From Pseudotabrizicola sp. (GTDB lineage: Bacteria > Pseudomonadota > Alphaproteobacteria > Rhodobacterales > Rhodobacteraceae), in contig NZ_JAUSNR010000026.1 in the NCBI RefSeq assembly GCF_030656345.1, forward strand, positions 62,001-126,000: a stretch of DNA of 64,000 bases, read 5' to 3'. Each line of letters starts with the position of its first letter. Within the stretch, counting starts at the first letter, position 1. Below, in pieces: positions 3,005 to 48,919 of this stretch. Below the pieces are notes generated by a model that was given only the letters and a program-made list of their open reading frames with translations, ran no database searches and was not told where the DNA came from. Made by a program: the position numbers and the translations under genes.

Positions 3005-4198
3005 ATGACCATGACAGAGGCAAAGCGGGCGCGTTGGGCGGTGGCGATGATGTTTGCCGCGGCGGGCTTTGTCATGGGGGCCTGGGCCCCGCAGATCCCG
3101 CTGCTGCTGCCGCGCCATCAGATCACCGAATTTACCCTTGGATTACTGATACTTGTGCTGGGTCTGGGCGCGGTTGGGGCCATGCTGTTCACCGGCCGGC
3201 TGATCGCGCGCTTCGGGTCCGTCGCGGTGCTGCGCGTCTTTGCGCTGTCCTCGGCGGTGGCCTTGCCGGTGGTGGTCTTTTCCCCGTCACTGCCCGTGCT
3301 GGTGCCCGCCATGGCGCTGCTGGGCGCGCTGATCGGCTGCATGGATGTCGCGATGAACGCCAACGCGGTCGAGGTCGAACGGCGGCTGGGCCGGGCGATC
3401 ATGTCCTCCAGCCACGGGTTCTGGAGCCTTGGCGGATTTTTCGGTGGTTTTGCAGGGGCTTGGGTGATTTCACACTGGGGGGCCTATGTGCAGGCCGGGC
3501 TGGTCGCGCTGGTCACGGCAGCAGTGGTTCTGGCGGTGATGCCCTTCCTGCGGGGTGAGGCCCCTGCCCCGGTGGTCGCCGTCACGGGCGAAAAGACCGT
3601 GCTGCTGCCACGCGCAGCGGGGCTGTGGTTGCTGGGCGCACTGGCGCTGTTTTCGATGGTGCCCGAAGGCGCGGTGCTGGATTGGGCAGCGATCTATCTG
3701 CAAAAGGACCTCGGCTCGGATGTGTTCCGGTCCGGCCTTGGCTTTGCGGTGTTTGCTGGCGCGATGGCGATCATGCGCTTTGCCGGAGACTCTGTGCGCA
3801 ACCGCTTTGGCGCGGTGCTGACGCTGCGGATCTCGGGTGTGCTGGCGGCTGCGGGGATGATGCTGGCGGCCGGGGCCCCCAGCGATACCCTTGCAATTGC
3901 TGCGTTTTTCATCACCGGGCTGGGGGTGGCGAACATGGTGCCAATCCTGTTTTCGGCTGCTGGAAACTACCCCGGCATCCCGTCCGGCACCGCGATTTCG
4001 GCGGTGACGATGGTGGGCTACGCGGGCATTCTGGTGGCCCCCGCCAGCATCGGCTTTGTCGCCGAAGCCATCGGCTTCCGCGTCACCTACGGGGTGCTGT
4101 CGCTGCTGCTGATCGTGGTCGCCCTGCTGGCAGGCCGCACCGCAGGGGCCGATGAGGTGCAGGCGGTGCCCGAACCTGCACCCCGCCGCGCGGCCTGA
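3005..4198 (+). CDS. MFS transporter
   Basis: About 12 hydrophobic segments; GRLIARFGSVAVLR-type MFS loop. Confidence 0.85.
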   Translation: MTMTEAKRARWAVAMMFAAAGFVMGAWAPQIPLLLPRHQITEFTLGLLILVLGLGAVGAMLFTGRLIARFGSVAVLRVFALSSAVALPVVVFSPSLPVLVPAMALLGALIGCMDVAMNANAVEVERRLGRAIMSSSHGFWSLGGFFGGFAGAWVISHWGAYVQAGLVALVTAAVVLAVMPFLRGEAPAPVVAVTGEKTVLLPRAAGLWLLGALALFSMVPEGAVLDWAAIYLQKDLGSDVFRSGLGFAVFAGAMAIMRFAGDSVRNRFGAVLTLRISGVLAAAGMMLAAGAPSDTLAIAAFFITGLGVANMVPILFSAAGNYPGIPSGTAISAVTMVGYAGILVAPASIGFVAEAIGFRVTYGVLSLLLIVVALLAGRTAGADEVQAVPEPAPRRAA

Positions 4199-4202
4199 GC
4201 CC

Positions 4203-4694
4203 TCAGCCCCCCATATAGTCGCCCTTGCCCAAAGCCACCCCATTGTGGCGCAAAATGTTGTAGGCCGTTGTCAGGTGGAAGTGGAACTGCGGCATTGAAT
4301 ACAGGTTCAGGAAAGTCTCGCCGGTCATGGTCACATCCTGCCCGCGCATTTTCAGCGTGATTTTGCGGGTTTCCGCCCCGTCATAGCGGGCCGCGTCAAA
4401 CCCGGCGATATAGCCGCGCGCCGCCACGATCCGGGCCTGCAACTCGGCAAAGCTGGTTTCGGTGTCGGGAAAGCTTTTCGGGTCCTCCCCCGCCAGCCGG
4501 GCGGCGGCGCGGGCGGCGAAATCGCAGGCCAGCTGCACCTGACGGACAAAGGGCAACATGTCGGGAAACAGGCGGAAGGTCAGCATCGCCTCGGGCTTGA
4601 TGGCATGGTCGGTGCAATGCGCTTCAGCCTTGGTCAGAAGGCGCGACAGGTTGGCAAGAAAGCGGTCGTAGACGGCGATGGATCGGTGATGCAT
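4203..4694 (-). CDS. DUF1993 family protein
   Basis: MHHRSIAVYDRFLANLSRLLTKAEAHC..AMLTFRLFPDMLPFVRQVQLACD..NLYSMPQFHFHLTTAYNILRHNGVALGKGDYMG. Confidence 0.85.
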   Translation of the reverse strand: MHHRSIAVYDRFLANLSRLLTKAEAHCTDHAIKPEAMLTFRLFPDMLPFVRQVQLACDFAARAAARLAGEDPKSFPDTETSFAELQARIVAARGYIAGFDAARYDGAETRKITLKMRGQDVTMTGETFLNLYSMPQFHFHLTTAYNILRHNGVALGKGDYMGG

Positions 4695-4791
4695 GAGGCA
4701 TGTCCTTTTTTGGCTTGGGCTAGTGATCTGCCCAAGGCTGCAAGGGGTCAAGAGTGGTTGAAGCCGCGCCGCGATGCGATATGTGGGGGAC

Positions 4792-5337
4792 ATGACAGAT
4801 GATCTTGCCAGCCGCGACCGCCTGCCGCCCGACCTTATGACCCTGCTGGCCGACTGGCCGCGCGAGCGGTGGTCTGATGTACCGGGGTTTGAAGGATTGT
4901 CGGCCTTCTGGCTGGACCGCCACCTTGGCTTTCGTGACCTGATGTCAGGCCTGCGGCTGGACGCCGAACACATGAGCGGCGGGCGGATCGACCCGCAGCG
5001 CTGGCAGGGCCGGTTGCTGCGCGGCGGCGAGCAGCTGGTGCAGGGGCTGATCGGGCATCATCAGGTTGAAGATGCAAGCTATTTCCCCGCCATGGTCAAG
5101 CTGGAGCCGCGCCTTGCGCGCGGGTTTGAGCTGCTGGACCGCGACCACCACGCGCTGGACGCGCTGCTCGATGGCTTTGTCGGCTCGGCCAACGATGCCC
5201 TGCAGGCGAGCGATCCGCGCGAGGCGGCGCTGGCGTTTCACACCAGCCTTGCGCCGTTCGAGCGTCAGCTGATCCGGCATCTGGAGGATGAGGAAGATCT
5301 GATCATCCCCGTCATCCTGAAACACCAGATGGGCTAG
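4792..5337 (+). CDS. Hemerythrin domain-containing protein
   Basis: GHHQVEDASYFPAM, LDRDHHALDALL, LIRHLEDEEDLIIPVIL: His/Asp/Glu pattern of HHE/hemerythrin proteins. Start uncertain (4774 or 4792). Confidence 0.75.
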   Translation: MTDDLASRDRLPPDLMTLLADWPRERWSDVPGFEGLSAFWLDRHLGFRDLMSGLRLDAEHMSGGRIDPQRWQGRLLRGGEQLVQGLIGHHQVEDASYFPAMVKLEPRLARGFELLDRDHHALDALLDGFVGSANDALQASDPREAALAFHTSLAPFERQLIRHLEDEEDLIIPVILKHQMG

Positions 5338-5349
5338 GCAGCGCGCTGA

Positions 5350-5433
5350 TAGCCGTAGCGCGCCCTGACTGACGCCGCGCTTTGGTTCGGCGAGAGCATC
5401 GTGGCCGGTGTAGCTGTCAACCTGCACGATGCC
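5350..5433 (-). pseudogene. Possible IS66-type transposase fragment
   Basis: Reverse-strand translation GGIVQVDSYTGHDALAEPKRG resembles the IS66 TnpC 'LQVDGYxGYxxL' segment; no surrounding transposase ORF. Confidence 0.4.
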
Positions 5434-5490
5434 CCCTCATCGCGTCAGGAAGCCGGGTTTTGGCCCAGCCTGGCCGTCATGCGTTGCGCG

Positions 5491-6207
5491 TCAGTTGACC
5501 TTTCGGGCGGCAAAGGGGGTCACGGTCCGGCATTGCAACCCCGCCAGCACCGCGTTTGCCGCCGCGTCTCCGGCGGTTGATGAGATGTTGTAGTCAAACA
5601 CGCTTTTGCCGCGCACTTCGGTCGGGCTGACCAGCGACAAGGTCCAGATCACGCTGGCACCCGTTGCCCCGGAACTGTCTGCCAGAGAATGGTCCGCCAC
5701 CACCCCGCGCCAGTTGCCCGAGCCGGTAACGCCGGACCAGCGCACCATGCCGGCAGCCTCGCTCATCAGCTTGTCGGGGTGAAAGCTGCCGTTCCAGTTG
5801 ATCTGCCGGGTCTCACCGCTCAGGTTGGTGGGCGGCGTGTTTCCGGCCAGCATCGGGCAGGCCGAAGTATCGGTGGCCCCGGTGGTGATCTGCCAGCGAC
5901 CATCTTCGGGCACCATCGGACCCGCCAGATAGACCGGGCACGACCCCGGCCCGCCGAACATCCGGTCAAGCTGCGCCGGGGTTTCGCTGCGCCAGCTGAA
6001 GCCGCCCGGTTCATCCACCAGCGTCAGCTCGCCCGCATTGTCGGGGATCTGGCCGGGCAATGTGGCAGCGATTTCTTGCAGCGTCATGGTAGAGATATAG
6101 CACATGCAGCCGCCGGGGGCGCAATCGGCGACCTGCACCCGCTCGGCCTGTGCCACCGGGGCAGAGGCGAGGACAAGCGCGGCACTCAGGGGAAAAAATC
6201 TGCGCAT
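5491..6207 (-). CDS. Hypothetical exported protein, likely co-transcribed with the vWA protein
   Basis: MRRFFPLSAALVLASAPVAQAERVQVADC signal peptide; starts 10 nt after the vWA gene stop. Confidence 0.7.
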   Translation of the reverse strand: MRRFFPLSAALVLASAPVAQAERVQVADCAPGGCMCYISTMTLQEIAATLPGQIPDNAGELTLVDEPGGFSWRSETPAQLDRMFGGPGSCPVYLAGPMVPEDGRWQITTGATDTSACPMLAGNTPPTNLSGETRQINWNGSFHPDKLMSEAAGMVRWSGVTGSGNWRGVVADHSLADSSGATGASVIWTLSLVSPTEVRGKSVFDYNISSTAGDAAANAVLAGLQCRTVTPFAARKVN

Positions 6208-6217
6208 CGGACTGCTC

Positions 6218-9200
6218 CTATGGTTGGCCGGGCCGCAGACGGGCGCGAAACTCTTCGGGAGAAAGGGTGCCAAGGTCGATGGGGATGATGGTGCCGCCAC
6301 CTGTGGCGGCAGGGGCCGCAGGCGACGCACCGCCGGGCACGACTTCGGCCACGCGGATCAGGTTCTGGTCGATCAGGCGCAGCACCCATGGCCCGGGCTT
6401 TTCCGGCACCTTCACCTCGACCTCAAGCGCGTCCGGTGTCACCCGGCTGCCGGTTTCAAGAATGGTGCGGTCGGGTTTGTCCGCACCGATGAAGCCTGCG
6501 GTGGCCTGCGGCGGTATCATCCCGCGCACCGACACCCGGACCATACCACCGGGAACAAGGTCGCCTTCCATCGTCAGCTCTGCCGGACCATCGCTGCCGC
6601 CCGAGGGCACCAGCACCGGCGGGCCACCGACATCAAGCTTTTCGCGTGCCAGAACCTGACCGCCCGCCAGATATTGCAGCTCATGCGGGCCGGAGGTGCC
6701 GTCCGGGATGCGCATCTCGCCGGTGACAACCTCATACAGGCTGGCCTCTGCCACCACCGCCCCGCCGGGGTCGACGATGGCCAGCCGGTCCGCCATCGCC
6801 ATGCGCGCGCGGGGGGACACACTGTAGGGCCTGCGCACTGCCGGGTTGGGGTTGAAATGCCGCAGCTCCGGCACCGGGGATGTCGCCACCTCCACCTCGG
6901 TCAGGGCACGGAAACTGGTACTTTCGGTATCGAACACCGCCAGAAGATAGCGGCCCGGCGCATCTGGCATCCGAATCGAGGCGCGGAATTCATCCAGCCA
7001 TGCGCCCTGATCCGGCAAAGCGTGGTCGGTGCCGCCGGCCAGCACCACCACCCGGTCGCTGCCGCGTTTGTCCTGCCCCCGGTTGATCTGCACCAGCACC
7101 TCTGCCCCGGCCAGATAGGGGCCACGGCCAACAAAACGCGCACCGTCATCGGGCTCGATGGCCATGCTGCCGACGCTTTCGCCCGCATCGCCCCCGAGCA
7201 CCTCAAACACAGCGGTAGCGGCCAGCGTTCCGCCTGCATCCGTGATCCGCACCTCATAGCGGCCAGGTTGGTCAGGCACCGGCAGAACCTGATCCTGCGC
7301 GCGCAGCATGTGACCGGCGTCTTCGGAAAGCAGCGCCGGGCCATCGGGGGCATCGGCGCGGGTCATGGTGATCCTGCCCTGAAAGCCCGGCGGCCCGGTC
7401 AGCGTCACCGGGAAATAGCCGTCCGTCCCCGCAAAGACCGGCTCGGTCGGCAGGCTGATCGTCACGCCCTGCCCCGCCTCTGCCCCCGTCAGCCGCGTGT
7501 TGGCGGCGATGAAGGCGGCGGCAATCTGCGCCTCGGCAGAGGCGTTGGACCAATAGCACAGCGGCCCGGCTGCGGTGGGCAGGCAAGGGCCATATTCGGG
7601 CGGCCAGACCGCATTGCCCATCAGCATCAGCACATCGGTGCCATTGGTGAATTGCGCGGTCACCGCGCCGTCAACATGCTCCACCTGCCACATCATCCAG
7701 CCGCGCGGCACCTGTGCTTCCAGCCCGTGGTCAAAGTTCACCCGCTGGCAGATCGCCTCATCACAGCCCATGGACTGGGTGGCCGGGGCCGGAAGGCTGC
7801 CCTGCCGATCGCCCTCCGGGTCCGGGCCATACAACTGGTCCTGCAACGCCGCCAGCGAGGGCAGGGCCACAGCCTCCGGCCAGACCACCACCGGCAGGCT
7901 GTTCGGGCCGGAAACCATCGTGCCGGAGTAGCCGTCCCCATAGGGTGCCAGCGAGATCACGAAGGCTTCCGGCGACACGGCGGGCAGCTGAAACCGCACG
8001 AAGAGGGTGCCCTCCTCCTCGGTCGCACTGTCCAGTGCGGCAGAGTCCAGCGGGGCCTGCGGGCCGACCAGCATCGGGGTGGGGGTGAAGGTGCCGTCCC
8101 AGCCATTGGCATCGGCACGGGTGCGCAGGGTGATGCGCAGCATGTCCATCACTTCGGTCGCGGCTCCGGCAGGGGCGTCGCGCGGCGGCACCGCCAGCAC
8201 CCGCCACGGGCCGTCCATCAACGTGCCGTGGTCTTCCTCGCCTCCGGCCTGAACCTGCCTCTGAACCTGAACCGTGAAGTCATTCACCTGTCCCGGAAAA
8301 ATCTCGACCTCTGCCGACAGGTCCACTTCGCCCGGCGCAGTGGCCGTCACCCGCCAGCGGCCCGGCTCGAAGGTGCCGGAAATCACCGGCCCGCTGTCCG
8401 TCGGGGCCCATGCCTCGGGGGACATGTCGGGGTCGAGCGGCACCGCGTCCCATGTCACATCCGATTGGGGCACACCGGACGGCAGGCGGAAGGTGGCGGG
8501 CACGGCGGCAATATTGTCCTGCGCCGCCTCACCTTGCGTGGCAGCGGCGGCCTGCGCGGCCAGATCGCTGCTGGTGGTCAGGTCGGCATCGTCAAACGGG
8601 ATGCCCACACCGAAGCGGCGGCCAAACATCACCTCGGTCCGTGACGGGTTCAGATAGCGCAGTTCATATTCACCGGGGTCGGATGGTGCCCGCAGACCGA
8701 CAGACCCGCCTCTTGACAGCGAATAGGCCCAGTCATAGCGCTGATGTTCATTCACCGGCTGGTCGATGTCAGCAATCACGATTAGTTCGCCGACCTGTTC
8801 CGGCCCACGAAAAGTGATCGGTATTCTGCTTCCAGGTTCAACCGATCCAATGGGATCGAAGCCCATGGCGGGGGGCACCACCTCGACCGCCTGCCGTGCG
8901 GTGATCACGCCACCGGCTGCGCGGATGATCAGGTCATACATCCCCGGCTCCTTTGGCGCGGTGCGCGTCACCGGATTGCGCGGTACGCCACCCGACATCA
9001 CGTTGATCGGGCCAAAACCGGGTGACGAGGGGGCCTGGTCTTCGCCCAATGGCACAAATCCCAGATAGTCTGTCGAGCCGGCCTCCCCCCGCCATGTGAT
9101 GTTGTAGGTGAACCCCGCCTCGGCCTTGTCGCTGATATCAAACGCGGCCTCTGGCGGTGAGGGATCTGGCTCCACGACCGGCTCCGGTCCGGGCGCAGGT

Positions 9201-35927: not shown

Positions 35928-37052
35928 TCAGCCGTCTTCACGGCTGACGCAAACGTCGTGGCCATGCGCCTTCAGCAGCGCGTGGCGGCGGGCAGCGTTC
36001 AGATCTTGCGCCACCATTTCGGCGCACATCTGCTGCGCGGTGATCTCGGGCGTCCAGCCCAGCCTTTCGCGCGCTTTTGTCGGATCACCCAGCAAGGTTT
36101 CCACCTCGGCCGGGCGGAAATAGCGCGGATCAATGCGCAGCACCACATGGCCGGGCCGCACCGCCGGGGCCTTGTCGCCCTGCACATCCACCACCGTGGC
36201 GGCTTCATCCACCCCTTCCCCCTGAAAGCTGAGCGTCAGGCCAAGCTCGGCCGCGCTCCAGGTAATGAACTCGCGCACGGAATACTGCTTGCCGGTCGCG
36301 ATGACAAAATCTTCGGCGCTGTCTTGCTGCAGCATCATCCATTGCATGCGGACGTAATCCTTGGCGTGGCCCCAGTCGCGCAAGGAATCGATGTTGCCCA
36401 TGAACAGGCAGGTTTCCAGACCCTGCGCGATATTGGCCAGTCCGCGGGTGATCTTCCGGGTGACAAAGGTTTCCCCCCGGCGCGGGCTTTCATGATTGAA
36501 CAGAATGCCGTTGCAGGCAAACATGCCGTAGGCCTCGCGGTAATTCACCGTGATCCAGTAGGCGTAAAGCTTGGCCACCGCATAGGGGCTGCGCGGGTGG
36601 AACGGCGTGGTTTCGCGCTGCGGCGTTTCCTGCACAAGGCCGTAGAGTTCCGAGGTCGAGGCCTGATAGAAGCGCGTCTTCTGGTCCAGCCCCAGAAAAC
36701 GGATCGCCTCAAGCAGGCGCAGGGTGCCGGTGCCATCGACATCAGCGGTGTATTCGGGGGCCTCAAAGCTGACCGCGACATGGCTTTGCGCGCCCAGATT
36801 ATACACCTCATCGGGCTGCACCTGCGCCAGAATGCGCGTGAGGTTCGACGTGTCGGACAGATCGCCGTAATGCAGGCGCAACCGGGCATTATCCAGATGC
36901 CGGTCCTGATAGATATGGTCAATCCGCTGGGTGTTGAACTGCGATGCCCGCCGTTTGATGCCATGCACCTCATACCCCTTGTCCAGCAGTAATTCCGCCA
37001 GATAAGAACCGTCCTGGCCGGTAATGCCGGTAATAAGGGCGCGTTTGGTCAT
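35928..37052 (-). CDS. gmd: GDP-mannose 4,6-dehydratase
   Basis: [122 protein letters not shown]. Confidence 0.97.
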
Positions 37053-37123
37053 GGTTGTTCCAGTTTCTGAGACGTTGCAGTTTCCACCACCAACCCAATC
37101 AGGTCGATTGCAGGATGTGAGAG

Positions 37124-37690
37124 TCAGCGTTTTTGTTTGCCAATATGGTCAAGCAAACGGTCCTTATATCTGGTGATGACATGATCGCGCAGGCTGCCAC
37201 TTTTCCGTTCAAACTCCGGATCGAACGCGGCCAGCGATGACAGATGGGTATCAAAATCGATCAGCGAATACATGTCACCAATTCTGATGACATTCCCGGT
37301 TTTAAGATCGGAGAACACCCAGCCACTTTGCACTGTCGCGCCAAACAGACGGTCGACAAAATCATCCGGAATGACGGCCGGGTGTTCGCCTCGACGCGTC
37401 ACATAGCCGCGAAGGATGCCGACCGGATCGTAAATGAACTCTTCCAGCGCACCGCTCAGTTCCGGAAGGAACAAGCCCGTGTCAAAACCGTGCAGCAGTT
37501 TCAGATTCCTGACAGTGACAAACTTTCCCCCGACCGCCGCGACCGTCCGCGCGACGAAATGTTCTCCCCAGACCTTGTAATATCGGTCGTTGGTCCGGAA
37601 CATCCGCCTGTCCTGCGTCGTGCCAGCCCCCCATCGGTTTGGATCGGTGCAATCCGTCAACCCGCTGAAATCAATGTCGGACAGCAGCAC
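37124..37690 (-). CDS. Small kinase-like protein (WbdD kinase domain-like)
   Basis: YYKVWGE (beta3-Lys-like), [24 protein letters not shown]: DLKxxN catalytic loop and DFD in the DFG position. GTG start directly after the methyltransferase TAG, same frame. Confidence 0.75.
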
Positions 37691-38350
37691 CTAGCGCTCT
37701 CCCGTCAGAACGGGAAACACCTCGGACCCGAGCATTTTTTCACTGACCGCTACCGAGATCTTTTTCATGCCCAGCGCCTCAAGGAACCGGATGTTTCCGG
37801 CAATGTCAAAAACACCGTCAAACCGCGTGTTCTTGCTGATATGCCCGGAAAACGATCCGCGTTCGGCGGCAAGAATGCGGCCGGGACGGCATTGTATGAC
37901 CACGCAGTCACATTTCTTTTTTGCATCTTCAATGATCAGGTCAATTTCATCATCTGACAGATGATAAAGTACCAGGGTCAGCAGCAGGGCATCATAGTCA
38001 ATGCGCGTGCAGGTTGCGGCGCTTTCATTCAAAAGCGTGATATTGTCGAAGCTGTAGCCCTTGTCCTTGAAAAATTGCAGCCACCTGCCGCTGATGTCAA
38101 AAATTGACCTGTCAATTTCAAGACCGGTCACCGTCTTTGCAAATTGGCTTGTCAGCATGGTGTACATGCCAAAATTGCTGCCGATTTCAAGAACATTGCG
38201 GTTTCGGAACAGTTCAAGTTTCCTGATGACAGGCTCTGTCTTCTGATCAACCCGCTGATAGCTGAGCGGATACCCCCCGACTTTACTTTCGGAAATACTC
38301 TTCATCAACTCATCAAAGTGGCCGGTGAAATCCGCAGAACTGAAGGACAT
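37691..38350 (-). CDS. Class I SAM-dependent methyltransferase
   Basis: RNVLEIGSNFGMYTMLTSQFAKTVTGLEID motif I/II; LLLTLVLYHLSDDEID. Confidence 0.85.
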   Translation of the reverse strand: MSFSSADFTGHFDELMKSISESKVGGYPLSYQRVDQKTEPVIRKLELFRNRNVLEIGSNFGMYTMLTSQFAKTVTGLEIDRSIFDISGRWLQFFKDKGYSFDNITLLNESAATCTRIDYDALLLTLVLYHLSDDEIDLIIEDAKKKCDCVVIQCRPGRILAAERGSFSGHISKNTRFDGVFDIAGNIRFLEALGMKKISVAVSEKMLGSEVFPVLTGER

Positions 38351-38359
38351 CGCTTTTCC

Positions 38360-41293
38360 TCAACTGTTTAAAATTTTACGCGTCAGACATGGGGCCGTCT
38401 GCAACGCCTCATAGATGGCGGATTGCGCCACAGCGTGGCAAAACCCCTCATAGCTCAGGTCAATCACTGCGCGGCGCTGCAACAGATACTGGTGGGCCGC
38501 CTCTACAAGACCGGGCGTGGCCAGCGCCCGGTCCGCCCCGGCTTCATCCGTCACATACAGCGGATAGTCGGCACCCAGATATTCCATCACCGCAGGCAGC
38601 GGGTTGATCAGGATGGGCGTTGCGCGGGCGATGCATTCGATCACCACATTGTTCGCCGCCGTGCCATACAGCAGACACAGCACCACCGAGGATGACAGCA
38701 GCGCGTCGTAGCGGGCGTTGGGGACGAACGCCACCATCTCGACCCCCGGGTCGCGCTGATCGCCGAAGACGGCGATGTCGCGCTGCAAAAACGCCGTCGT
38801 CCATTGTTTGAGCAGCATGATCCGCCTGTGCCCGGGCGCACGCAGCCGGTGGATCGCCTGCAGCCGCCGCAGCCAGTCGCCCACCTGCACCACCGCCGGC
38901 GCGGCGCGATAGGCGGAAGGGTCGAACAGTCTGGCGTCATATCTGGTCGGGTGTTTGACCGACAGGGTCGCCACGCCGGGCAAGAAACGGTTCAGATCCG
39001 CCTCCAGATCCTGCGCGAGCGTCAGGATGCCCCGGCAGGCGGGCAATGATTGCCGGAACAGCGCGGAGGTCAGAAAGGTCTCGGGCCGGGTTGCAGGTTC
39101 AAACCAGTCCGGCGTTTCAAACGGGACATGCAGAATGCCGATCCAGGGCCGCGTCAGGGCGCAGGGATTTGGGGATCTCGCCTCGCCCTCGGCATCGCCC
39201 CAGACGAACTGCCGTTCGAGAAAGGGGATGACCTGCACACCATCCTCCCCGTCGATTTCCAGCGGGGTCAGTGCGTTGACCAATGCGTTGAAATTGTTGC
39301 GGTGCTGGCCATAGTCGCGGGCCGTTCCCCCCAGACACAGCTTGCGCGGCAGACCGGCGGGCGGTCCATTCCGCTTTGGCTGCGCCCCGCTGCGCCGGGC
39401 CAGAAACAGCGGCAGAAACTCATCCTCCACCACCTTGTGCAGACGGTCCAGATCGGTACCGCGACGGTTGTGCGACGTGGGATTGACGAAGTAAAACCCC
39501 AACGGGGCCGGATCAAGCCAGCCCGATCCGCCACCCTGCAGCACCTTCAGCCAGAACGCCCAGTCGGCAAAGGTGCCATAGCGCCCTTCATCGAACCAGC
39601 CGAAGCGGGCATGCAGCGCGCGGCGCCAGACCGGCATGCAATGCGGCAAGTTGAACGGCTCCAGCCCCGGCGGGGACTGATCCGTCAGCGTAGCAAGATC
39701 GCAGAACCCGAAGGCACCGGGCCGGTCGGCATACCAGGCGTCGCGGTTGTCGGGCAGGGTTCCGTCATCGGGGAAGACATAGAACGGGTTCAGGGCGCTG
39801 GCCGCCACCAGCACCTCGGGCCGGCTGTCCAGCTGGGCAACCAGCGTGGCCACATGGGCAGGGTCGCGCAGATCATCGACATTGGCGTTGGAAACATAGG
39901 GCGTGCGCGCCACCCTGATGCCGATGTTCCAGCAGGCATAAAGCCCCGGGTCCTTGCGGAACCACAGCACTGTCGCGGTGGGATAGCGCGACAGATGGGC
40001 ATCCAGCAGACCGGCCTCATGGGCCGTCAGGGTCGAGACAAGGAACACATGTTCGATCTGGCTGCCATAGCCGTCAAGCCGGGTGCAATTGGTCAGAAAC
40101 CCGTTCATGAATGCATCGGCCCGGAACACCGAGGTCATCAGCGTGCAGCCAAGCGCCACGGGCGCAGGCAAAGTGTTTGCGGTCAGGGTCAGGAAAACCC
40201 CTTCAACCTCGGCCAGCAGCGCCGCATCGATCCGGTCGATATCGGCAACGAAGGCCAGAGATTGCAGGGTCCCGTGATCGCCGTTCAGCAGTGCGCAACG
40301 CAGCGCAGCGACGCCGTCGCAGGGCCTCAGGACCGACGCTGCCGGATATTCGGCCAGCACGGCAAGATTTTCAGCGATGATCCGGTCCGGGTCGGCATCG
40401 CACAGGATCATGACTTCGCAGGCGTGCCGGTCAGCCAGAGCGCAGAGGGGCGCAAGATGCGCGGCCAGAGCGTGTTCCAGCCCTGCCGGCACCGCCATAT
40501 ATATTCTGGGCCGGTTGGTGCTGGCCGGTGCCGGTCGGTAACCGGCGCGAAGCCAGCGGGTCGACACCCAAGGGTTGCCAAAGTAGTTCCACGGGTAGAC
40601 CGCATTCTGTTTGGTGTGCCGCCAGAGAATTTCCTGCGACGTCTCGTCCGCATTGACCTCGCGATAATACGCATCGTCCTTGGGCTGCTCATGGTGCTGC
40701 AGCACGATATCAAGGCATGGGTTGAACACCTCGCAGCCCGACCCGAGCAGATCATGGGTCAGCAGCATGTCGCAGTTCATCTGGCCGGGGCAATAGAACA
40801 GATCACGCGTCAGATGCAGCGGCTGGCAGAACGCCCAGGCATCGGCCGAGAGGGTGTTGGGCAGACCGTTGCCGTCATACAGCGTCAGGGCAAGTTCGCC
40901 ATCCTGCGGATCATGCCGGGTCAGTGCAAACACCACCGGCGCGCCCTCGCCTGCCATCGCCGCCAGCGTTTCAGTCAACCGCGCGGCCGAGCCATCGTCG
41001 GCCAGGCTGATATCGGCGTTCAACATTGCCACCGCCTGCGCGCCATGGGTCAGGCAATGGTTGGCGCAGGTGAACAGATCGGCAAAGGTGGGCCGCTGAC
41101 CGGTGTGTTCGATCCGGACGCGCCCTGACGCGCCAGCGGAGGCGGCGGCCGCGATGTACCAGTCCGGCCTGCCCTCGGTCAGCACCACAATTTCTGACAC
41201 AGCCGCAAGCGCCAGATTGGCCCGCAGGGCCGCCAGAACCGGATCGCGGCGGTCGGCGGGCAGATTGCCGATTGTGGTAACAAGGGTGATCAA
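38360..41293 (-). CDS. Multidomain glycosyltransferase (two GT-A-like modules plus C-terminal GT-B-like module)
   Basis: EHVFLVSTLTAHEAGLLDAHLSRYPTATVLWFRKDPGLYACWNIGIRVARTPYVSNANVDD (GT2); C-terminal YDALLSSSVVLCLLYGTAANNVVIECIARATPILINPLPAVMEYLG (GT-B donor-site pattern). TTG start inferred. Confidence 0.8.
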   Translation of the reverse strand: MITLVTTIGNLPADRRDPVLAALRANLALAAVSEIVVLTEGRPDWYIAAAASAGASGRVRIEHTGQRPTFADLFTCANHCLTHGAQAVAMLNADISLADDGSAARLTETLAAMAGEGAPVVFALTRHDPQDGELALTLYDGNGLPNTLSADAWAFCQPLHLTRDLFYCPGQMNCDMLLTHDLLGSGCEVFNPCLDIVLQHHEQPKDDAYYREVNADETSQEILWRHTKQNAVYPWNYFGNPWVSTRWLRAGYRPAPASTNRPRIYMAVPAGLEHALAAHLAPLCALADRHACEVMILCDADPDRIIAENLAVLAEYPAASVLRPCDGVAALRCALLNGDHGTLQSLAFVADIDRIDAALLAEVEGVFLTLTANTLPAPVALGCTLMTSVFRADAFMNGFLTNCTRLDGYGSQIEHVFLVSTLTAHEAGLLDAHLSRYPTATVLWFRKDPGLYACWNIGIRVARTPYVSNANVDDLRDPAHVATLVAQLDSRPEVLVAASALNPFYVFPDDGTLPDNRDAWYADRPGAFGFCDLATLTDQSPPGLEPFNLPHCMPVWRRALHARFGWFDEGRYGTFADWAFWLKVLQGGGSGWLDPAPLGFYFVNPTSHNRRGTDLDRLHKVVEDEFLPLFLARRSGAQPKRNGPPAGLPRKLCLGGTARDYGQHRNNFNALVNALTPLEIDGEDGVQVIPFLERQFVWGDAEGEARSPNPCALTRPWIGILHVPFETPDWFEPATRPETFLTSALFRQSLPACRGILTLAQDLEADLNRFLPGVATLSVKHPTRYDARLFDPSAYRAAPAVVQVGDWLRRLQAIHRLRAPGHRRIMLLKQWTTAFLQRDIAVFGDQRDPGVEMVAFVPNARYDALLSSSVVLCLLYGTAANNVVIECIARATPILINPLPAVMEYLGADYPLYVTDEAGADRALATPGLVEAAHQYLLQRRAVIDLSYEGFCHAVAQSAIYEALQTAPCLTRKILNS

Positions 41294-41346: not shown

Positions 41347-41811
41347 TCAGGCGGCGCGCCGGTAGGCAAGAGCAACGCTGCGGGCAAGGATTGCCTGCGC
41401 CTGTGCCCGTTCGGGGTATCCGGATGCGGCCAGCCGCCGCAGCAACTGATGCGCGCGCGCCGGATCGCCACCGCGAAGATGCCCCGCCGCCACCGCAAGC
41501 CACAGATCGGGGCGGCAGGGATCTTTGGCCAGATCCGCCTCTGCCTCTGCCACCGCCTGACTGTCCGGAACGGGCAAGTCCGCCAGACCGTCCAGCGGAT
41601 CATCGCTCTGCTCGGGCAGGCGCAGCAGCCCTTCCGGCAGCGGCAGGCGCAGGTTGATCAGGCGGGCGAAAATCACATACTGACCGCGCAGATGGCTGTT
41701 CCGCGCCACAACCGGGCTGCTTTGCAACGCCGCCAGTTCGCCGATGATCCTGTCATGCAGGCTGCCATCCTGGCGCAAAGACTCGAGGTAAAGTTCGTAC
41801 ATCTGCTGCAA
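41347..41811 (-). CDS. Small TPR-like helical protein
   Basis: CRPDLWLAVAAGHLRGGDPARAHQLLRRLAASGYPERAQAQAILARSVALAYRR: TPR-like hairpins. Confidence 0.55.
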   Translation of the reverse strand: MQQMYELYLESLRQDGSLHDRIIGELAALQSSPVVARNSHLRGQYVIFARLINLRLPLPEGLLRLPEQSDDPLDGLADLPVPDSQAVAEAEADLAKDPCRPDLWLAVAAGHLRGGDPARAHQLLRRLAASGYPERAQAQAILARSVALAYRRAA

Positions 41812-42055: not shown

Positions 42056-43030
42056 ATGAAAATCTACATCGCCGGACACCGGGGCATGGTCGGGTCTGCC
42101 ATCCTGCGCCTGTTGCAGGCGCGTGTTGCAGCGGGCGAAGCGCTGACCCTGCTGACCCGCAGCCATGCCGAGCTTGACCTGACCAGCCAGACGCAGGTTC
42201 AGGCCTTCATGCAGAAGGAACGGCCCGATGTGGTGATTCTGGCCGCCGCAAAGGTTGGCGGTATCCATGCCAACAACAGCTATCCGGCGGATTTCATTTA
42301 TCAAAACCTGATGATCGAATGCAATGTGATCCATCAGGCCCATGCCGCCGGGGTCAGACGGCTGTTGCAGTTGGGGTCGTCCTGCATCTACCCCCGCGCG
42401 GTCGCACAGCCGATGGCGGAAGGTGCCCTGCTGACCGGCGTGTTGGAGCCGACGAATGAACCCTATGCCATCGCCAAGATCGCCGGGATCAAGCTGTGCG
42501 AAAGCTACAACCGGCAGCACGGCACCGATTTCCGGTCGGTGATGCCAACCAACCTTTACGGCCCCGGCGACAATTTCCATCCGCAGAACAGCCATGTGCT
42601 GCCCGCCCTGATCCGCCGGTTTCACACCGCCGCCCGCGCCGGTGAAAAGCGGGTGACGATCTGGGGTTCTGGCCAGCCCCGACGCGAATTCCTGCACGTT
42701 AATGATATGGCCGAGGCCAGCCTGTTCGTGCTGGATCTGCCAAAAGACGTGTATGACGCAAACACGCAACCGATGCTCAGCCACATCAATGTGGGGACCG
42801 GGCGGGATATCACGATCCTTGATCTGGCCCGCACCGTCGCCGAAGTGACCGGCTTTGGCGGGCAGATAGAGACGGACCCGACAAAGCCCGACGGCACGAT
42901 GCAAAAGCTGATGGATGTGTCGCGGCTGGCCGGCATGGGCTGGCGGGCCCGGATCGAGTTGCGTGACGGACTCGCGCAGACCTATGACTGGTTCCTGTCG
43001 ACTGACCCCGATGCGCTGCGCGCCTCCTGA
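42056..43030 (+). CDS. fcl: GDP-L-fucose synthase
   Basis: [76 protein letters not shown]. Confidence 0.97.
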
Positions 43031-43060: not shown

Positions 43061-43921
43061 ATGCCCGCTGCCCGCGCGCACCTGTTCATCGACACCCAGC
43101 ACGGGCTATGCAACCGGCTGCGGGCCATGGCGTCGGCTGCGGTGATCGCAAGGGGGACGGGGCGGCAACTGGTTGTGGTCTGGCGGCCCGACCACCATTG
43201 TCAGGCGCGATTGGCCGATCTGCTGGATTACCCCGGCCCGGTGATCGAGGATGACAGCGCCGACAGTTTCCGCGCGCGGGCCACAAAGGTCTATAATTAC
43301 ATGGAGATCGAGCCGGGATCGGCGCATGGCGCAGCGGTGCTGGAGGGCAAGGACACCGGGGGTGATGTCTATATCCGGTCGGCCTATTCCCTGACCACCC
43401 GCCTGACCAGCATGGCGCAAGAGCAGGTCTTTCTGCGCCGGTTGGTGCCGTCACAGCCGGTCTGGGATCTGGTGCAAACAGTGCGCCACCCGTCGGACGT
43501 GGCGGCGCATATCCGCATGGCCACCGGCCCGGCCTTCGACCATCTGTCGCATGAATCCCCTGAAAACTGGCCCGCAGAGCGGCACCGCGAGCTGATCGAA
43601 TGGCGCATGAAAAGTGATGTGTCCCGCTTTGTCGACCGCCTGACGCGGGCGTTTGATCAGGGGGCCAGACACGCCTTTGTCGCCGCCGATCTGGCTGCAA
43701 CCTATGCCGCGCTGTCCGAAAGGTTTGGCCACAAACTGCGCTTTCTGCCGCGCGAATCGTACGACCGCTCGCCCCGGCAGTTGCAATATGCGATGGCCGA
43801 CCTGATGCTGCTGACCTCGGCACCGCTGCTGCTGGCCAGCCATTGGAGCTCTTTTTCCGATGTTGCGCAGCGATTGTCGCGGCCCTTTCACCGGGTGGAA
43901 CGCAGCGGCATCGATTTCTGA
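43061..43921 (+). CDS. NodZ-like (GT23/GT68-type) putative fucosyltransferase
   Basis: HGLCNRLRAMASAAVIARGTGRQLVVVW and DVAAHIRMATGP resemble nucleotide-binding motifs of NodZ/O-FucT enzymes; directly after fcl. Confidence 0.65.
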   Translation: MPAARAHLFIDTQHGLCNRLRAMASAAVIARGTGRQLVVVWRPDHHCQARLADLLDYPGPVIEDDSADSFRARATKVYNYMEIEPGSAHGAAVLEGKDTGGDVYIRSAYSLTTRLTSMAQEQVFLRRLVPSQPVWDLVQTVRHPSDVAAHIRMATGPAFDHLSHESPENWPAERHRELIEWRMKSDVSRFVDRLTRAFDQGARHAFVAADLAATYAALSERFGHKLRFLPRESYDRSPRQLQYAMADLMLLTSAPLLLASHWSSFSDVAQRLSRPFHRVERSGIDF

Positions 43922-43925
43922 CCCG

Positions 43926-44546
43926 TCAGACGGCGACCGCTGTCAGGGTTCTTTGCCCCGCCATCGCGGCCTCACCCGAGCCAAGATGCAGCAGCCGCAA
44001 ATCGCGCAGGTCAAGGCGGAAATTCTGTTTGGGCAACGGCAGGATCAGCGTGTGGAACTGCCCGGCCCAGACCAGCGGATCGCTGGCCGCGATGCAGTGC
44101 AGCATAACCGATGCGCCGCCAGCGGGTGTCAGCCTGATCTCTTCCGCAAGGATGGTATCTAGGGTCTCGTCTTCCTTGCTGGAGCGGACAAACGGCTGGC
44201 AATCGAACGGCACAGTGCTGCTGGCGTCGATCACCAGACCAAAACTGTCCCCAGCAGCAAAAGCGCCCGCGCCAAGACCGATGTTCAGCGCAAACCAGCG
44301 CGGGGACCCTTGCAGCGTGACCTCTGCCGTCAGAAGCTGGCCGGGAGCCGATTGCACCGCGATTGCCACCTCGGCCTGCGCGCTGTCCCATGAAAAATAG
44401 ACATTGGGGCTGATGTGCCCCCCCTCTTCGGCGGGGGCCATGATGGTGGCCTGCCGCAGGCGGTGCAGCGTGATGGCAGAGTCTTCGACACAAGGATGGG
44501 GCACTGGGAACACTCCTGAACAGCAACAAGGAACCGAGACGACCAA
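43926..44546 (-). CDS. Hypothetical protein
   Basis: ORF with codon-like composition, start uncertain; no family recognised. Confidence 0.5.
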   Translation of the reverse strand: MVVSVPCCCSGVFPVPHPCVEDSAITLHRLRQATIMAPAEEGGHISPNVYFSWDSAQAEVAIAVQSAPGQLLTAEVTLQGSPRWFALNIGLGAGAFAAGDSFGLVIDASSTVPFDCQPFVRSSKEDETLDTILAEEIRLTPAGGASVMLHCIAASDPLVWAGQFHTLILPLPKQNFRLDLRDLRLLHLGSGEAAMAGQRTLTAVAV

Positions 44547-44807: not shown

Positions 44808-46253
44808 ATGACACCCAGTATTTACCCTGTCCTTTTGTGCGGCGGTTCGGGCACGCGGCTGTGGCCGTTGTCGCGGCAGTCCTTTCCCAAGCAGTTTTCG
44901 CGTCTGACCGGAAATGAGAGCCTGTTTCAGGCTGCTGCCCGGCGTCTGAAAGGCGATGGGTTTTCTGCCCCCGTCATCATCACCAGCAATGATTTCCGCT
45001 TCATCGTGGTCGAACAGCTGGCCGGGATCGAAGCCGCCCCGCAGGCGATCCTGATCGAGCCTGAGGGGCGCAACACCGCCCCCGCCGTTCTGGCCGCCGC
45101 CCTGCATCTGCAGCAGCTTGATGCGGATGCCCTGCTGCTGGTGGCCCCGTCTGACCATGTGGTGCCCGATGATGCGGCCTTCCGCGCGGCGGTTCATGCC
45201 GCCTCCGCGCGCGCGATGGCGGGCGATATCATCACCTTCGGCATCACGCCCACCCGGGCCGAAACCGGCTATGGCTATCTGGAACTGGCAGCGGGGGCAG
45301 ACCCGATGGCCGATACCCCGCAATCGCTGGCCCGCTTTGTCGAAAAGCCTGACGCGGCAACGGCCACGACGATGCTGAATGCTGGCAATTTCCTGTGGAA
45401 CGCGGGGATTTTCCTGTTCACCGCCGCCACGCTGGTCAAGGCGTTTCAGGATCACGCCCCGCAGGTGCTTGGCCCGGTGCAGGCGGCTGTGGCCAAAGCC
45501 CAGCCCGACCTGTCCTTCACCCGGCTGGACCCGGCGGCCTGGGCCGATGTGCCCGATATCTCGATCGACTACGCGATCATGGAAAAGGCCGCCAATCTTG
45601 CGGTGATGCCATTTTCCGCCGGCTGGTCCGATCTGGGCGGCTGGGATGCGGTCTGGCAAGAGGCCGGGCCCGATGCATCGGGCAATGTCGCCTCGGCCAA
45701 CGCCACCGCGATTGATTGCGAAGACACGCTGCTGCGGTCGGAAACCCCGCGGATTGAACTGGTCGGGATCGGCCTAACCGACATCATCGCCATCGCCACC
45801 ACCGATGCGGTTCTGGTCGCGCATAAATCGCAAAGCCAGCGGGTGAAAGAGGCGGTCGCCATCCTCAAGGCGCGCGGTGCCGCGCAGGCCACCACCTTCC
45901 CGACCGACCACCGCCCCTGGGGCATGTTCGAAAGCCTAGTGATCGGATCACGGTTTCAGGTCAAGCGGATTGTGGTGAACCCCGGTGCAGCGCTGAGCCT
46001 GCAATCACACCACCACCGGTCTGAACACTGGATCGTGGTGCAGGGCACAGCAAGGGTGACCGTCGACAACGACGTCCGGCTGCTGACCGAAAACCAGTCG
46101 GTCTACATTCCGCTGGGGGCCGTGCACCGCATGGAAAACCCCGGCAAGCTGCCGATGGTGCTGATCGAAGTGCAGACCGGCAGCTATCTGGGCGAAGACG
46201 ACATCATCCGGTACGAGGATGTCTATTCACGGGGTCAGGGCGCGAAGGGCTGA
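44808..46253 (+). CDS. manC: Mannose-1-phosphate guanylyltransferase / mannose-6-phosphate isomerase
   Basis: PVLLCGGSGTRLWPLSRQSFPKQF; FVEKPD; C-terminal cupin QSHHHRSEHWIVVQGTARVT. Confidence 0.97.
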   Translation: MTPSIYPVLLCGGSGTRLWPLSRQSFPKQFSRLTGNESLFQAAARRLKGDGFSAPVIITSNDFRFIVVEQLAGIEAAPQAILIEPEGRNTAPAVLAAALHLQQLDADALLLVAPSDHVVPDDAAFRAAVHAASARAMAGDIITFGITPTRAETGYGYLELAAGADPMADTPQSLARFVEKPDAATATTMLNAGNFLWNAGIFLFTAATLVKAFQDHAPQVLGPVQAAVAKAQPDLSFTRLDPAAWADVPDISIDYAIMEKAANLAVMPFSAGWSDLGGWDAVWQEAGPDASGNVASANATAIDCEDTLLRSETPRIELVGIGLTDIIAIATTDAVLVAHKSQSQRVKEAVAILKARGAAQATTFPTDHRPWGMFESLVIGSRFQVKRIVVNPGAALSLQSHHHRSEHWIVVQGTARVTVDNDVRLLTENQSVYIPLGAVHRMENPGKLPMVLIEVQTGSYLGEDDIIRYEDVYSRGQGAKG

Positions 46254-46293: not shown

Positions 46294-47307
46294 TCAGCCT
46301 GTGGCGCGCAGCGCCCGGAAAGGGCCAGTGACGCGCCAGGATCTTGACGCGTAAACGCTGTGCAGCTCCCGCTCCAGCTGATCAGCGCGCGCTTTGCTCT
46401 CGGTTCCAGCCAGAATCACCTGCTGATCCTTCAGCAAAATCGCGGCCAGTGTGGCCTCTCGCCCGGCAGCCTGTTCTGTGGCTGTGTCCAGCTGGTGCTG
46501 CAATGCCTGCACCTTGGCCGTCTGCAGTTTCAGATCGGCAAGGGTATCGTGCAACGACCGCAACCCGGCGGGCAAGGCCGCCAGCCGCTTTTGGCCAGCG
46601 TCATCGCCTGCAATCCTGTCGGTGCCAAGCCGCAGTGCCAGACTTTCGCGCAGCAGGCTGACTTCGGCATCCAGCAGATTTGCCTTTTCCTCCAGGGCGG
46701 CCACCGCTTCCTGCAGCCGGTCCGCTTCGACTTTCGCCTGCCGATGGACCTGCAACGCAGCCTGACATCCCACAACAGACAAACCGCCACCGTCGCCCCC
46801 ACGACGAAGGGCCGCGATTTCGTCGGCAAGGCGCGATGCCTCGGGATCGCGCAGCAAGGCCGCTTCGGCGATGACCAGCAAGACCGGATCCAGGGGCGGC
46901 GGAAGGTCTTTGACGATGGCCGGTTCGCCTGCCTCCGCCAGTTGGGCAAGCACCTGCGCCTCGGCGCTGGCAAGGCCACGCGCATCCACCAGACGCAGCC
47001 GGCGACGCACCCGACGCGCGGCCCGCAGCAGCGGCTCTGCCGCTGACTTCCAGTCGGTCAGGGCGCCTTCAACACTGCCACGCGCGGAAAGATGCCGGGC
47101 AATCGCCTCGACGGGATGTGTGACAGGGACGATGATCTCGCTGTCCCCCCCGACACTGACCGCCGCTTCAAGATCAGGAAAGCGGGTCAATTCCCGGCCC
47201 GGAAACAGGGCCGCAAGCTGCGCGGCGATCGGTGGTGCCAAGGGGTCGTCACCTGCCACCACCAACAGGGGGGACAGATCCGTATCAGTGGGGCTTGGCA
47301 TCGGCAT
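46294..47307 (-). CDS. Coiled-coil protein with C-terminal SWRxTxPxR tail
   Basis: Long heptad-like helix (EADRLQEAVAALEEKANLLDAEVSLLRESL...) ending LHSVYASRSWRVTGPFRALRATG. Confidence 0.7.
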   Translation of the reverse strand: MPMPSPTDTDLSPLLVVAGDDPLAPPIAAQLAALFPGRELTRFPDLEAAVSVGGDSEIIVPVTHPVEAIARHLSARGSVEGALTDWKSAAEPLLRAARRVRRRLRLVDARGLASAEAQVLAQLAEAGEPAIVKDLPPPLDPVLLVIAEAALLRDPEASRLADEIAALRRGGDGGGLSVVGCQAALQVHRQAKVEADRLQEAVAALEEKANLLDAEVSLLRESLALRLGTDRIAGDDAGQKRLAALPAGLRSLHDTLADLKLQTAKVQALQHQLDTATEQAAGREATLAAILLKDQQVILAGTESKARADQLERELHSVYASRSWRVTGPFRALRATG

Positions 47308-47398: not shown

Positions 47399-48919
47399 TC
47401 AGAACCAGCGGCCAATGGCGGTATAGCCCCAGCGGAACTCTTCGGTCAGCGCCACGGCGGAAAAGGCGCGCAAGACGCCATTGGTCAGCGCGGTTGTGGT
47501 GGGGCTGCCGTTCATCGTCAGCCAACCATCGGCCGAGGCTGCGAATCCCCCCCGCAACGTTACCAACGGTGCCCCGACAAAGGCCATCGGAAAGCTGGGA
47601 ACGGTCAAAGAACTGTTGGTGAAAAGCGCCCCGCGCGCGGTGGTCACCGCCAGCGAGGGCGCAGCCAGATCGCGCCAGCAGATCTGCGTCCCGTCCGCAA
47701 AGCGCGTGAAATTGCCGTTCGCATTGGTGCCGCGCTCGATGACCGCCCCGGTGGGCAGACCCGCCGTTTGTGCAACCGTGCCGACAACCCGGGCCTGGTG
47801 CAACATTTCGGTCCATAGCACAGGGCCGGTCGCCGTGGTGCGGCGACCGTGCCAGAACCTGATATCTGCCCCGCTGGCCAATCGCGCCGCGATGATCACA
47901 CAGCCGCCGCTCGTGGCTTTGCTGACAATGGCGCTGCCGGAAAAAGCAGCACCGCTACCCGGTGCGCCGACAGCTGTCGCCTCCTGATAGGTATAGACCC
48001 CCGGCGCGATATCTTGGGTAAAATCCGCCAGCAGCAGGCTGGCACCAATGCCGAAATCCCCCACCTTCAGCAAGCGCCCGGCGGTGGTATCGCTGGCGCT
48101 TTGCGTGACCGCCGTTCCGGTCACCGGCACCGACAGCTGCAGCGCCGTGTCGGTTACCACCGCCCGCGCAACCCCGCCGGTGCTCAGGCCGATCTGATGC
48201 GCAGCGGGGCTGAACAGCCCGGTGCCGCCATCGCCGTCAAACCCCAGCGCCGGGTCGACTGCCGTGCCGCCGGGCAAAAGTGCCCCGGCGGGAAAGCGCA
48301 GCTGCCCGGTTGCGGGCACGGTGCCCAGCGCCTCGGACCACGCTGCGCCATCGGCACTGACCTTGATGGCAAAGGCATCATTCCCCGCCAGCCCCATCTC
48401 GGCCCGCCCGGACCAGCCGGTCTGAAACAACAGGCTGGCGGTGTCGATCGGGGCCGCCTTGTTGATTTTCAATTGATGCCCCGCCCCGTCATGGCTGAAC
48501 AACGACGCCTGCGAGGCGACTGCCAGCCGGTTGACAGCATCAGACCCTGTCCCGATTCCAAGGCCCGAAAGCTGATCCATCGGCAACTGCGCCCAGTCCC
48601 CGGCCTGACGCACCTGCAACGTGGCCGTGGCGCGGTCCCAGGCCCGCCACCCCTCTTGCGCCGGTACAAACAGCCAGCCATTACCGGCATGAATCGCCAA
48701 TTTGCCCGACTGCCCGGTCCAAAGCCCGGTCGGGGCGGCCCCGATGGCCCAGACCTGCCCGTTCTGCGCGGTTTCGGGCGGTGTGTTCTGGCCGATGGCC
48801 TCGACACACAACTGGGCGGCAGCGTCGATGATCTGCAGTGCCTCGTTGTGCGTGACATGCTTTTGCGCCTGTGCCGGAAGAATATAGGGCATGGCAAGAT
48901 TGGGCGTTGTGTCCGGCAT
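47399..48919 (-). CDS. DUF2793 domain protein, phage/GTA spike- or fibre-like
   Basis: MPDTTPNLAMPYILPAQAQKHVTHNEALQIIDA (DUF2793 N-terminus); C-terminal FTRFADGTQICWRDL..FRWGYTAIGRWF fibre-tip-like. Confidence 0.85.
   Translation of the reverse strand: MPDTTPNLAMPYILPAQAQKHVTHNEALQIIDAAAQLCVEAIGQNTPPETAQNGQVWAIGAAPTGLWTGQSGKLAIHAGNGWLFVPAQEGWRAWDRATATLQVRQAGDWAQLPMDQLSGLGIGTGSDAVNRLAVASQASLFSHDGAGHQLKINKAAPIDTASLLFQTGWSGRAEMGLAGNDAFAIKVSADGAAWSEALGTVPATGQLRFPAGALLPGGTAVDPALGFDGDGGTGLFSPAAHQIGLSTGGVARAVVTDTALQLSVPVTGTAVTQSASDTTAGRLLKVGDFGIGASLLLADFTQDIAPGVYTYQEATAVGAPGSGAAFSGSAIVSKATSGGCVIIAARLASGADIRFWHGRRTTATGPVLWTEMLHQARVVGTVAQTAGLPTGAVIERGTNANGNFTRFADGTQICWRDLAAPSLAVTTARGALFTNSSLTVPSFPMAFVGAPLVTLRGGFAASADGWLTMNGSPTTTALTNGVLRAFSAVALTEEFRWGYTAIGRWF

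Follow-up and report, generated by a model that had tools for sequence, protein, structure and literature searches.

A methyltransferase and a kinase-like protein encoded on adjoining codons in a variable slot of a predicted GDP-fucose glycan cluster of Pseudotabrizicola sp.

In the 64,000-nucleotide stretch of Pseudotabrizicola sp. DNA analysed here (the window), a reading frame for a putative methyltransferase (MT) and one for a kinase-like protein lie in one frame on the minus strand, with 0 nt between the TAG of the first and the GTG of the second (Table 1). This raises the question of whether they are the two halves of a split WbdD-like methyltransferase-kinase, as the original prediction proposed, and of what such a pair would do in its surroundings.

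Table 1. Features of the locus, in window coordinates
Feature	Position	Strand	Evidence and remarks
gmd, GDP-mannose 4,6-dehydratase	35928..37052	-	Pfam GDP_Man_Dehyd 6e-152; right flank of slot
Swappable slot	37054..38436		Without DNA homology to relatives; colinear blocks on both sides
Kinase-like protein	37124..37690	-	188 aa, GTG start, TGA stop; DLKTGN-x10-IDFD motif
Junction	37691..37708	-	GGGAG Shine-Dalgarno in MT 3' end, TAG, then GTG at 37690
MT, class I SAM-dependent methyltransferase (predicted)	37691..38350	-	219 aa, stop TAG; weak but consistent MT matches
Large multi-domain glycosyltransferase	38360..41293	-	Weak GT2 Pfam match; left flank of slot
TPR-like small protein	41347..41811	-	Pfam TPR_14 6e-4, below cut-off; 69% in G046
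fcl/wcaG, GDP-fucose synthase	42056..43030	+	Pfam Epimerase 1e-62
Possible fucosyltransferase	43061..43921	+	286 aa; assigned by eye only
manC, mannose-1-phosphate guanylyltransferase / mannose-6-phosphate isomerase	44808..46253	+	Pfam

Anatomy of the adjoining reading frames

The bases around the junction are as had been described: the MT frame runs from an ATG at 38350 to the TAG at 37693-37691, the kinase-like frame from the GTG at 37690-37688 to a TGA at 37124, and counting the TAG as one residue joins them into the fusion of 408 aa that had been anticipated. The GGGAG noted 8 nt upstream of the GTG is also present, and its duplex with the anti-Shine-Dalgarno (anti-SD) sequence, at -7.4 kcal/mol, is among the better ones for the 13 starts of the window that are correctly placed and were scored (for comparison, -5.6 kcal/mol at the MT start and -3.3 at gmd); weaker SD sites precede the later in-frame starts of the kinase-like frame, a TTG at residue 11 and an ATG at residue 30. 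The 26 genes tabulated end in TGA (21), TAA (3) or TAG (2, the MT and one other), and because TAG terminates another gene too, we read it at the end of the MT as an ordinary stop. The junction fits termination-reinitiation and favours, among the forms previously considered for the product, separate proteins, making a readthrough fusion or a lesion less likely. Both frames show a coding-type codon-position bias, and their GC content is 49% (MT) and 55% (kinase-like), compared with 61-67% in neighbouring genes; as low GC is common to both, they plausibly arrived together.

The first product appears to be a class I SAM-dependent methyltransferase, carrying motif I (VLEIGSNFG) and an acidic residue, E78, after β2, at weak E-values; its matches are likewise weak (NCBIfam CpaM, 1e-6; PDB 1vbf, 9e-4). 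The second is probably a phosphotransferase, judging by one motif block. The YYKVW, DLKTGN and IDFD signatures reported earlier are found at residues 37, 128 and 144. A block of the DLKTGN-x10-IDFD type is the standard kinase catalytic loop followed by the metal-binding Asp, and the catalytic D, K and N as well as the metal-binding D are all retained here. Just 4 of 200,000 shuffles of the protein reproduce the relaxed pattern (D-h-[KR]-x-x-N ... h-D-F-[DGEN]), which places the block beyond chance composition, and the distance from N to D, 12 residues here and 13 in WbdD, suits the hairpin.

Outside this block the N-lobe is unrecognisable, with a K39 that lacks an αC Glu at the usual distance. 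The kinase-like protein has zero matches in Pfam, even at E 10, none in PHROGs or NCBIfam, and none credible in the PDB; SAKe matches from the first PDB search, about 30 residues long and with no single stretch passing, were taken as repeat artefacts. A single-sequence AlphaFold prediction reached a pLDDT of 33, and a model built from an alignment of 44 unrelated kinases, which yielded no fold matches with E below 0.001, is given little weight because of its partial circularity and because its confidence is confined to the surroundings of the catalytic loop, at about residues 111-150.

Searches of sampled genomes and pattern scans returned no orthologue of the MT in 399 genomes of the phylum (strict E of 1e-10), of the kinase-like protein in 395 of the order, or of the joined 408 aa in 397 genomes of the family, in which the one weak match, a 433-aa MT, was judged not to be an orthologue. 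Plasmids, phages and viral contigs were empty, as was a peptide pattern scan of GTDB genome contigs, and a degenerate catalytic-loop pattern run on GTDB genomes gave 86 stretches, mostly from other kinases, 0 of which were similar outside the loop. Because no orthologue of the pair was found, the neighbouring glycosyltransferase was used as query instead.

A variable slot in a conserved glycan cluster

Two genomes of the same genus, G046 and G1027, share with the window a colinear block of 12.8 kb that reaches from galE through the whole glycosyltransferase gene (51.2 to 38.4 kb), at 78-81% DNA identity, and colinearity with the genus resumes from gmd onward at 88%; G835, which is more distant and belongs to another genus of the family, carries the cluster at 52% protein identity. 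Between the glycosyltransferase gene and gmd, the MT and kinase-like stretch has no counterpart in these relatives, which carry unrelated modification genes instead (blastn breakpoints at 38437 and 37053 against G046, and at 38426 and 37064 against G1027). The slot holds 1) in G046, a Sulfotransfer_3 (8e-17; gene of 45% GC) and a Methyltransf_24 (1e-10) protein, 2) in G835, one 576-aa fusion of WcbI (5e-28) and a Stf0-like sulfotransferase (5e-5), and 3) in G1027, a WcbI-like remnant, which matches the G835 protein by blastp at 6e-10, with a Methyltransf_24 on the other side of a contig break. The basis for slot replacement is these three genomes besides that of the window, G1027 being represented by two contigs with the break inside the slot, and a looser parallel, G021, in whose related fucose cluster a two-repeat sulfotransferase-like protein adjoins gmd and a clear Sulfotransfer_1 gene lies nearby. 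The WcbI-like frame of G1027 (L151, 1-271), of about 60 aa and cut off at the contig end, is possibly a decaying slot gene; the protein beside gmd in G021 is encoded by a 912-aa frame of L154, at 3656-6394 on the minus strand, and its two repeats are similar to each other, with a weak Pfam match.

Every recognisable slot cargo is a modifying enzyme. Low-GC foreign DNA (45-55%) occurs among the slot genes of G046, G1027 and the window's own genome (G000), and no remnants of the relatives' cargos were detected in the window. The cargos of G046, G835 and G1027 share with the MT and kinase-like pair their place, a similar size and often a low GC content, but belong to unrelated protein families and chemistry. 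Because the relatives carry unrelated sulfate- and methyl-adding enzymes in the same slot, we read the pair as probably a swapped-in module of a sugar-decoration slot. The comparison strongly supports a glycan-modifying, decoration-type role, leaving the sugar and the bond unspecified; the proposal that the pair caps a fucose-containing glycan thus holds in its link to fucose-glycan genes and in the modifying role, and is not supported as regards a WbdD-style cap that sets chain length.

As for the flanks, the gmd product is 95% identical to a protein in G046, and the large glycosyltransferase (listed as a frame from 41503, with TTG 41293 as the likelier start) has homologues within the genus (75-77%) and in G835 (52%). 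The name fcl/wcaG follows from the pairing with gmd. The product of the gene next to it has zero Pfam matches, is conserved with the cluster (87% in G046, 57% in G021) and may represent a new fucosyltransferase family.

The cluster holds three further conserved products, all on the minus strand. A 206-aa protein of no recognised family (43926-44546) is found at 73% in G046 and 37% in G021. A 337-aa protein (46294-47307; 60% in G046, about 30% in G835 and G021) has a coiled-coil-like C-terminus ending in YASRSWRVTGPFRAL, a motif that WbdD, too, carries towards its C-terminus (SRSWRMT at residue 592), and could be a scaffold of the glycan machinery. A DUF2793 protein inside the glycan cluster (47399-48919; 83% identical in G046, 44% in G835) has strong PHROG tail-fibre matches and, DUF2793 being the tail fibre family of RcGTA (PMC10883770), a link between fibre and glycan or to the GTA is possible. 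On contig C37 of the window's genome, two sulfotransferase genes with an ABC-2 permease close by (29-50 kb) are perhaps a separate capsule-type cluster.

Candidate roles of the pair

The explanation that we favour, with confidence slightly better than even, is that the pair is cargo acquired by the decoration slot of this GDP-fucose glycan cluster and consists of two coupled proteins responsible for phosphorylation and methylation. The conserved cluster around the slot would make a GDP-fucose-dependent glycan, and the cargo would vary by genome between a sulfotransferase, a WcbI-type enzyme, a Methyltransf_24 and, here, the MT with the kinase-like phosphotransferase. Ribosomes would terminate at the TAG and, by way of the GGGAG inside the MT frame, begin again at the GTG next to it; this coupling, be it of two subunits or of enzymes that act in sequence, would give matched amounts of two separately made proteins. 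The kinase-like protein would then phosphorylate a hydroxyl on one of the sugars of the glycan, after which the MT would methylate the resulting phosphate, or a neighbouring hydroxyl, so that the glycan would bear an anionic or capped group instead of sulfate. Argued by analogy, phosphorylation followed by methylation of the phosphate would be the simplest joint chemistry for the pair, and it would set a decoration at a place comparable to that of sulfate. A more specific version, which we consider somewhat unlikely, is that this is a third, unrelated MT and phosphotransferase pair, made of two coupled genes, that puts methyl-phosphate on a fucose glycan to which the relatives add sulfate, bacteria swapping the two.

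Alternatively, the two proteins may be independent modifiers, the MT O-methylating a sugar and the kinase-like protein acting otherwise or being catalytically dead. Unrelated chemistries do stand side by side in the slots of G046 and G835, the N-lobe is degenerate, and the generic MT matches give no pointer to phosphate; we nevertheless find this unlikely, since the adjacent-codon coupling and the shared composition suggest joint action, and the kinase-like protein has kept its full set of catalytic and metal-binding residues. A fused MT-kinase gene recently interrupted by an amber mutation (or by an assembly error), or a readthrough fusion, would account for the gapless shared frame and the fusion obtained by reading TAG as a residue, and WbdD and ORF6 of Klebsiella O7 are indeed fusions. 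We find this improbable: the stop lies where the two domains are expected to meet and not within either of them, a good SD and a start codon accompany the TAG, which a random lesion would rarely supply, TAG is a normal stop here, and neither frame has decayed further.

If the favoured explanation is true, the locus is a natural experiment in compact form, in which a glycan cluster is conserved but for a single variable slot where close relatives swap sulfation, acyl-type and methylation/phosphorylation enzymes. Comparing this one slot would test changes in surface charge and in phage or gene-transfer-agent receptors, as well as enzyme function, and a sequence-orphan kinase-like family would join the few known MT-kinase glycan modifiers.

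Relation to WbdD and other methyltransferase-kinase systems

A WbdD-type terminator would phosphorylate and methylate a growing polymer at its non-reducing end, thereby stopping growth, setting length and licensing export. The original prediction took WbdD of Escherichia coli O8 and O9a to be an MT-kinase fusion, which is correct for O9a; in O8 the kinase is absent, the fusion being found in O9/O9a WbdD only (PMC3482155). In the fusion, the MT spans residues 1-210 and the kinase starts at 211, and H132, H133 and R203, which bind phosphate, are the residues by which WbdD acts as a phosphate MT (PMC3482155). The order of the two domains in our pair is that of WbdD, the spacing of the Gly-rich loop, Lys and catalytic loop is similar, the MT has QR..D near its N-terminus as does WbdD (R36 of WbdD corresponding to R33), and the cluster encodes a separate coiled-coil protein with the WbdD-like SRSWR motif.

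On the other hand, similarity between WbdD of E. coli HS (O9), which matches the solved WbdD chains, and the joined 408 aa is not significant by blastp (E 0.065, catalytic loops unaligned), and a profile comparison aligns the MT over motif I only (E 0.0067) and the kinase in the wrong place (E 0.089). In a tentative placement of the phosphate-binding residues, the column of H132/H133 holds Y129/H130 in the MT, and R203 aligns by score to R176, but in the loop after β5 and not in the β6-β7 hairpin. A WbdD-like junction (R-VL[IL]) that looks alike by eye is below significance and was discarded, and a search of 399 genomes with the WbdD kinase returned ordinary Ser/Thr kinases. Neither protein of the pair has a coiled coil, and the kinase-like one ends 61 residues past the catalytic Asp. 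The window's genome has 0 matches to the carbohydrate-binding domain Wzt_C (PF14524), no Wzm/Wzt genes were seen in the cluster, the genome's ABC-2 permease candidates are on other contigs only, and the relatives' slots hold sulfotransferases, enzymes that do not act as terminators of the WbdD kind. WbdD membership is therefore not supported, and we regard a terminator of this type as quite improbable.

In summary, O9/O9a WbdD (PDB 4AZS/4AX8) and the pair are alike in having an MT with a kinase-type domain directly behind it, and in being encoded among glycan genes whose cluster also makes use of GDP-mannose. They differ in that WbdD is one polypeptide with a coiled-coil ruler and a Wzt recognition domain, whereas here there are two reading frames, no C-terminal ruler and no Wzt_C, and in that the kinase-like protein has 188 aa, compared with about 249 aa in WbdD. 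ORF6 of Klebsiella pneumoniae O7 pairs an MT with a kinase of about 220 aa that has no relation to WbdD and is not recognised from its sequence (PMC11231755). Likened by description, it resembles our pair in having an MT beside such a kinase domain, and differs in being fused to CBM, coiled-coil and GT2 modules and in that its kinase resembles AmiN. Since it shows that unrelated MT-kinase terminators exist, a function by analogy may still be considered for the pair.
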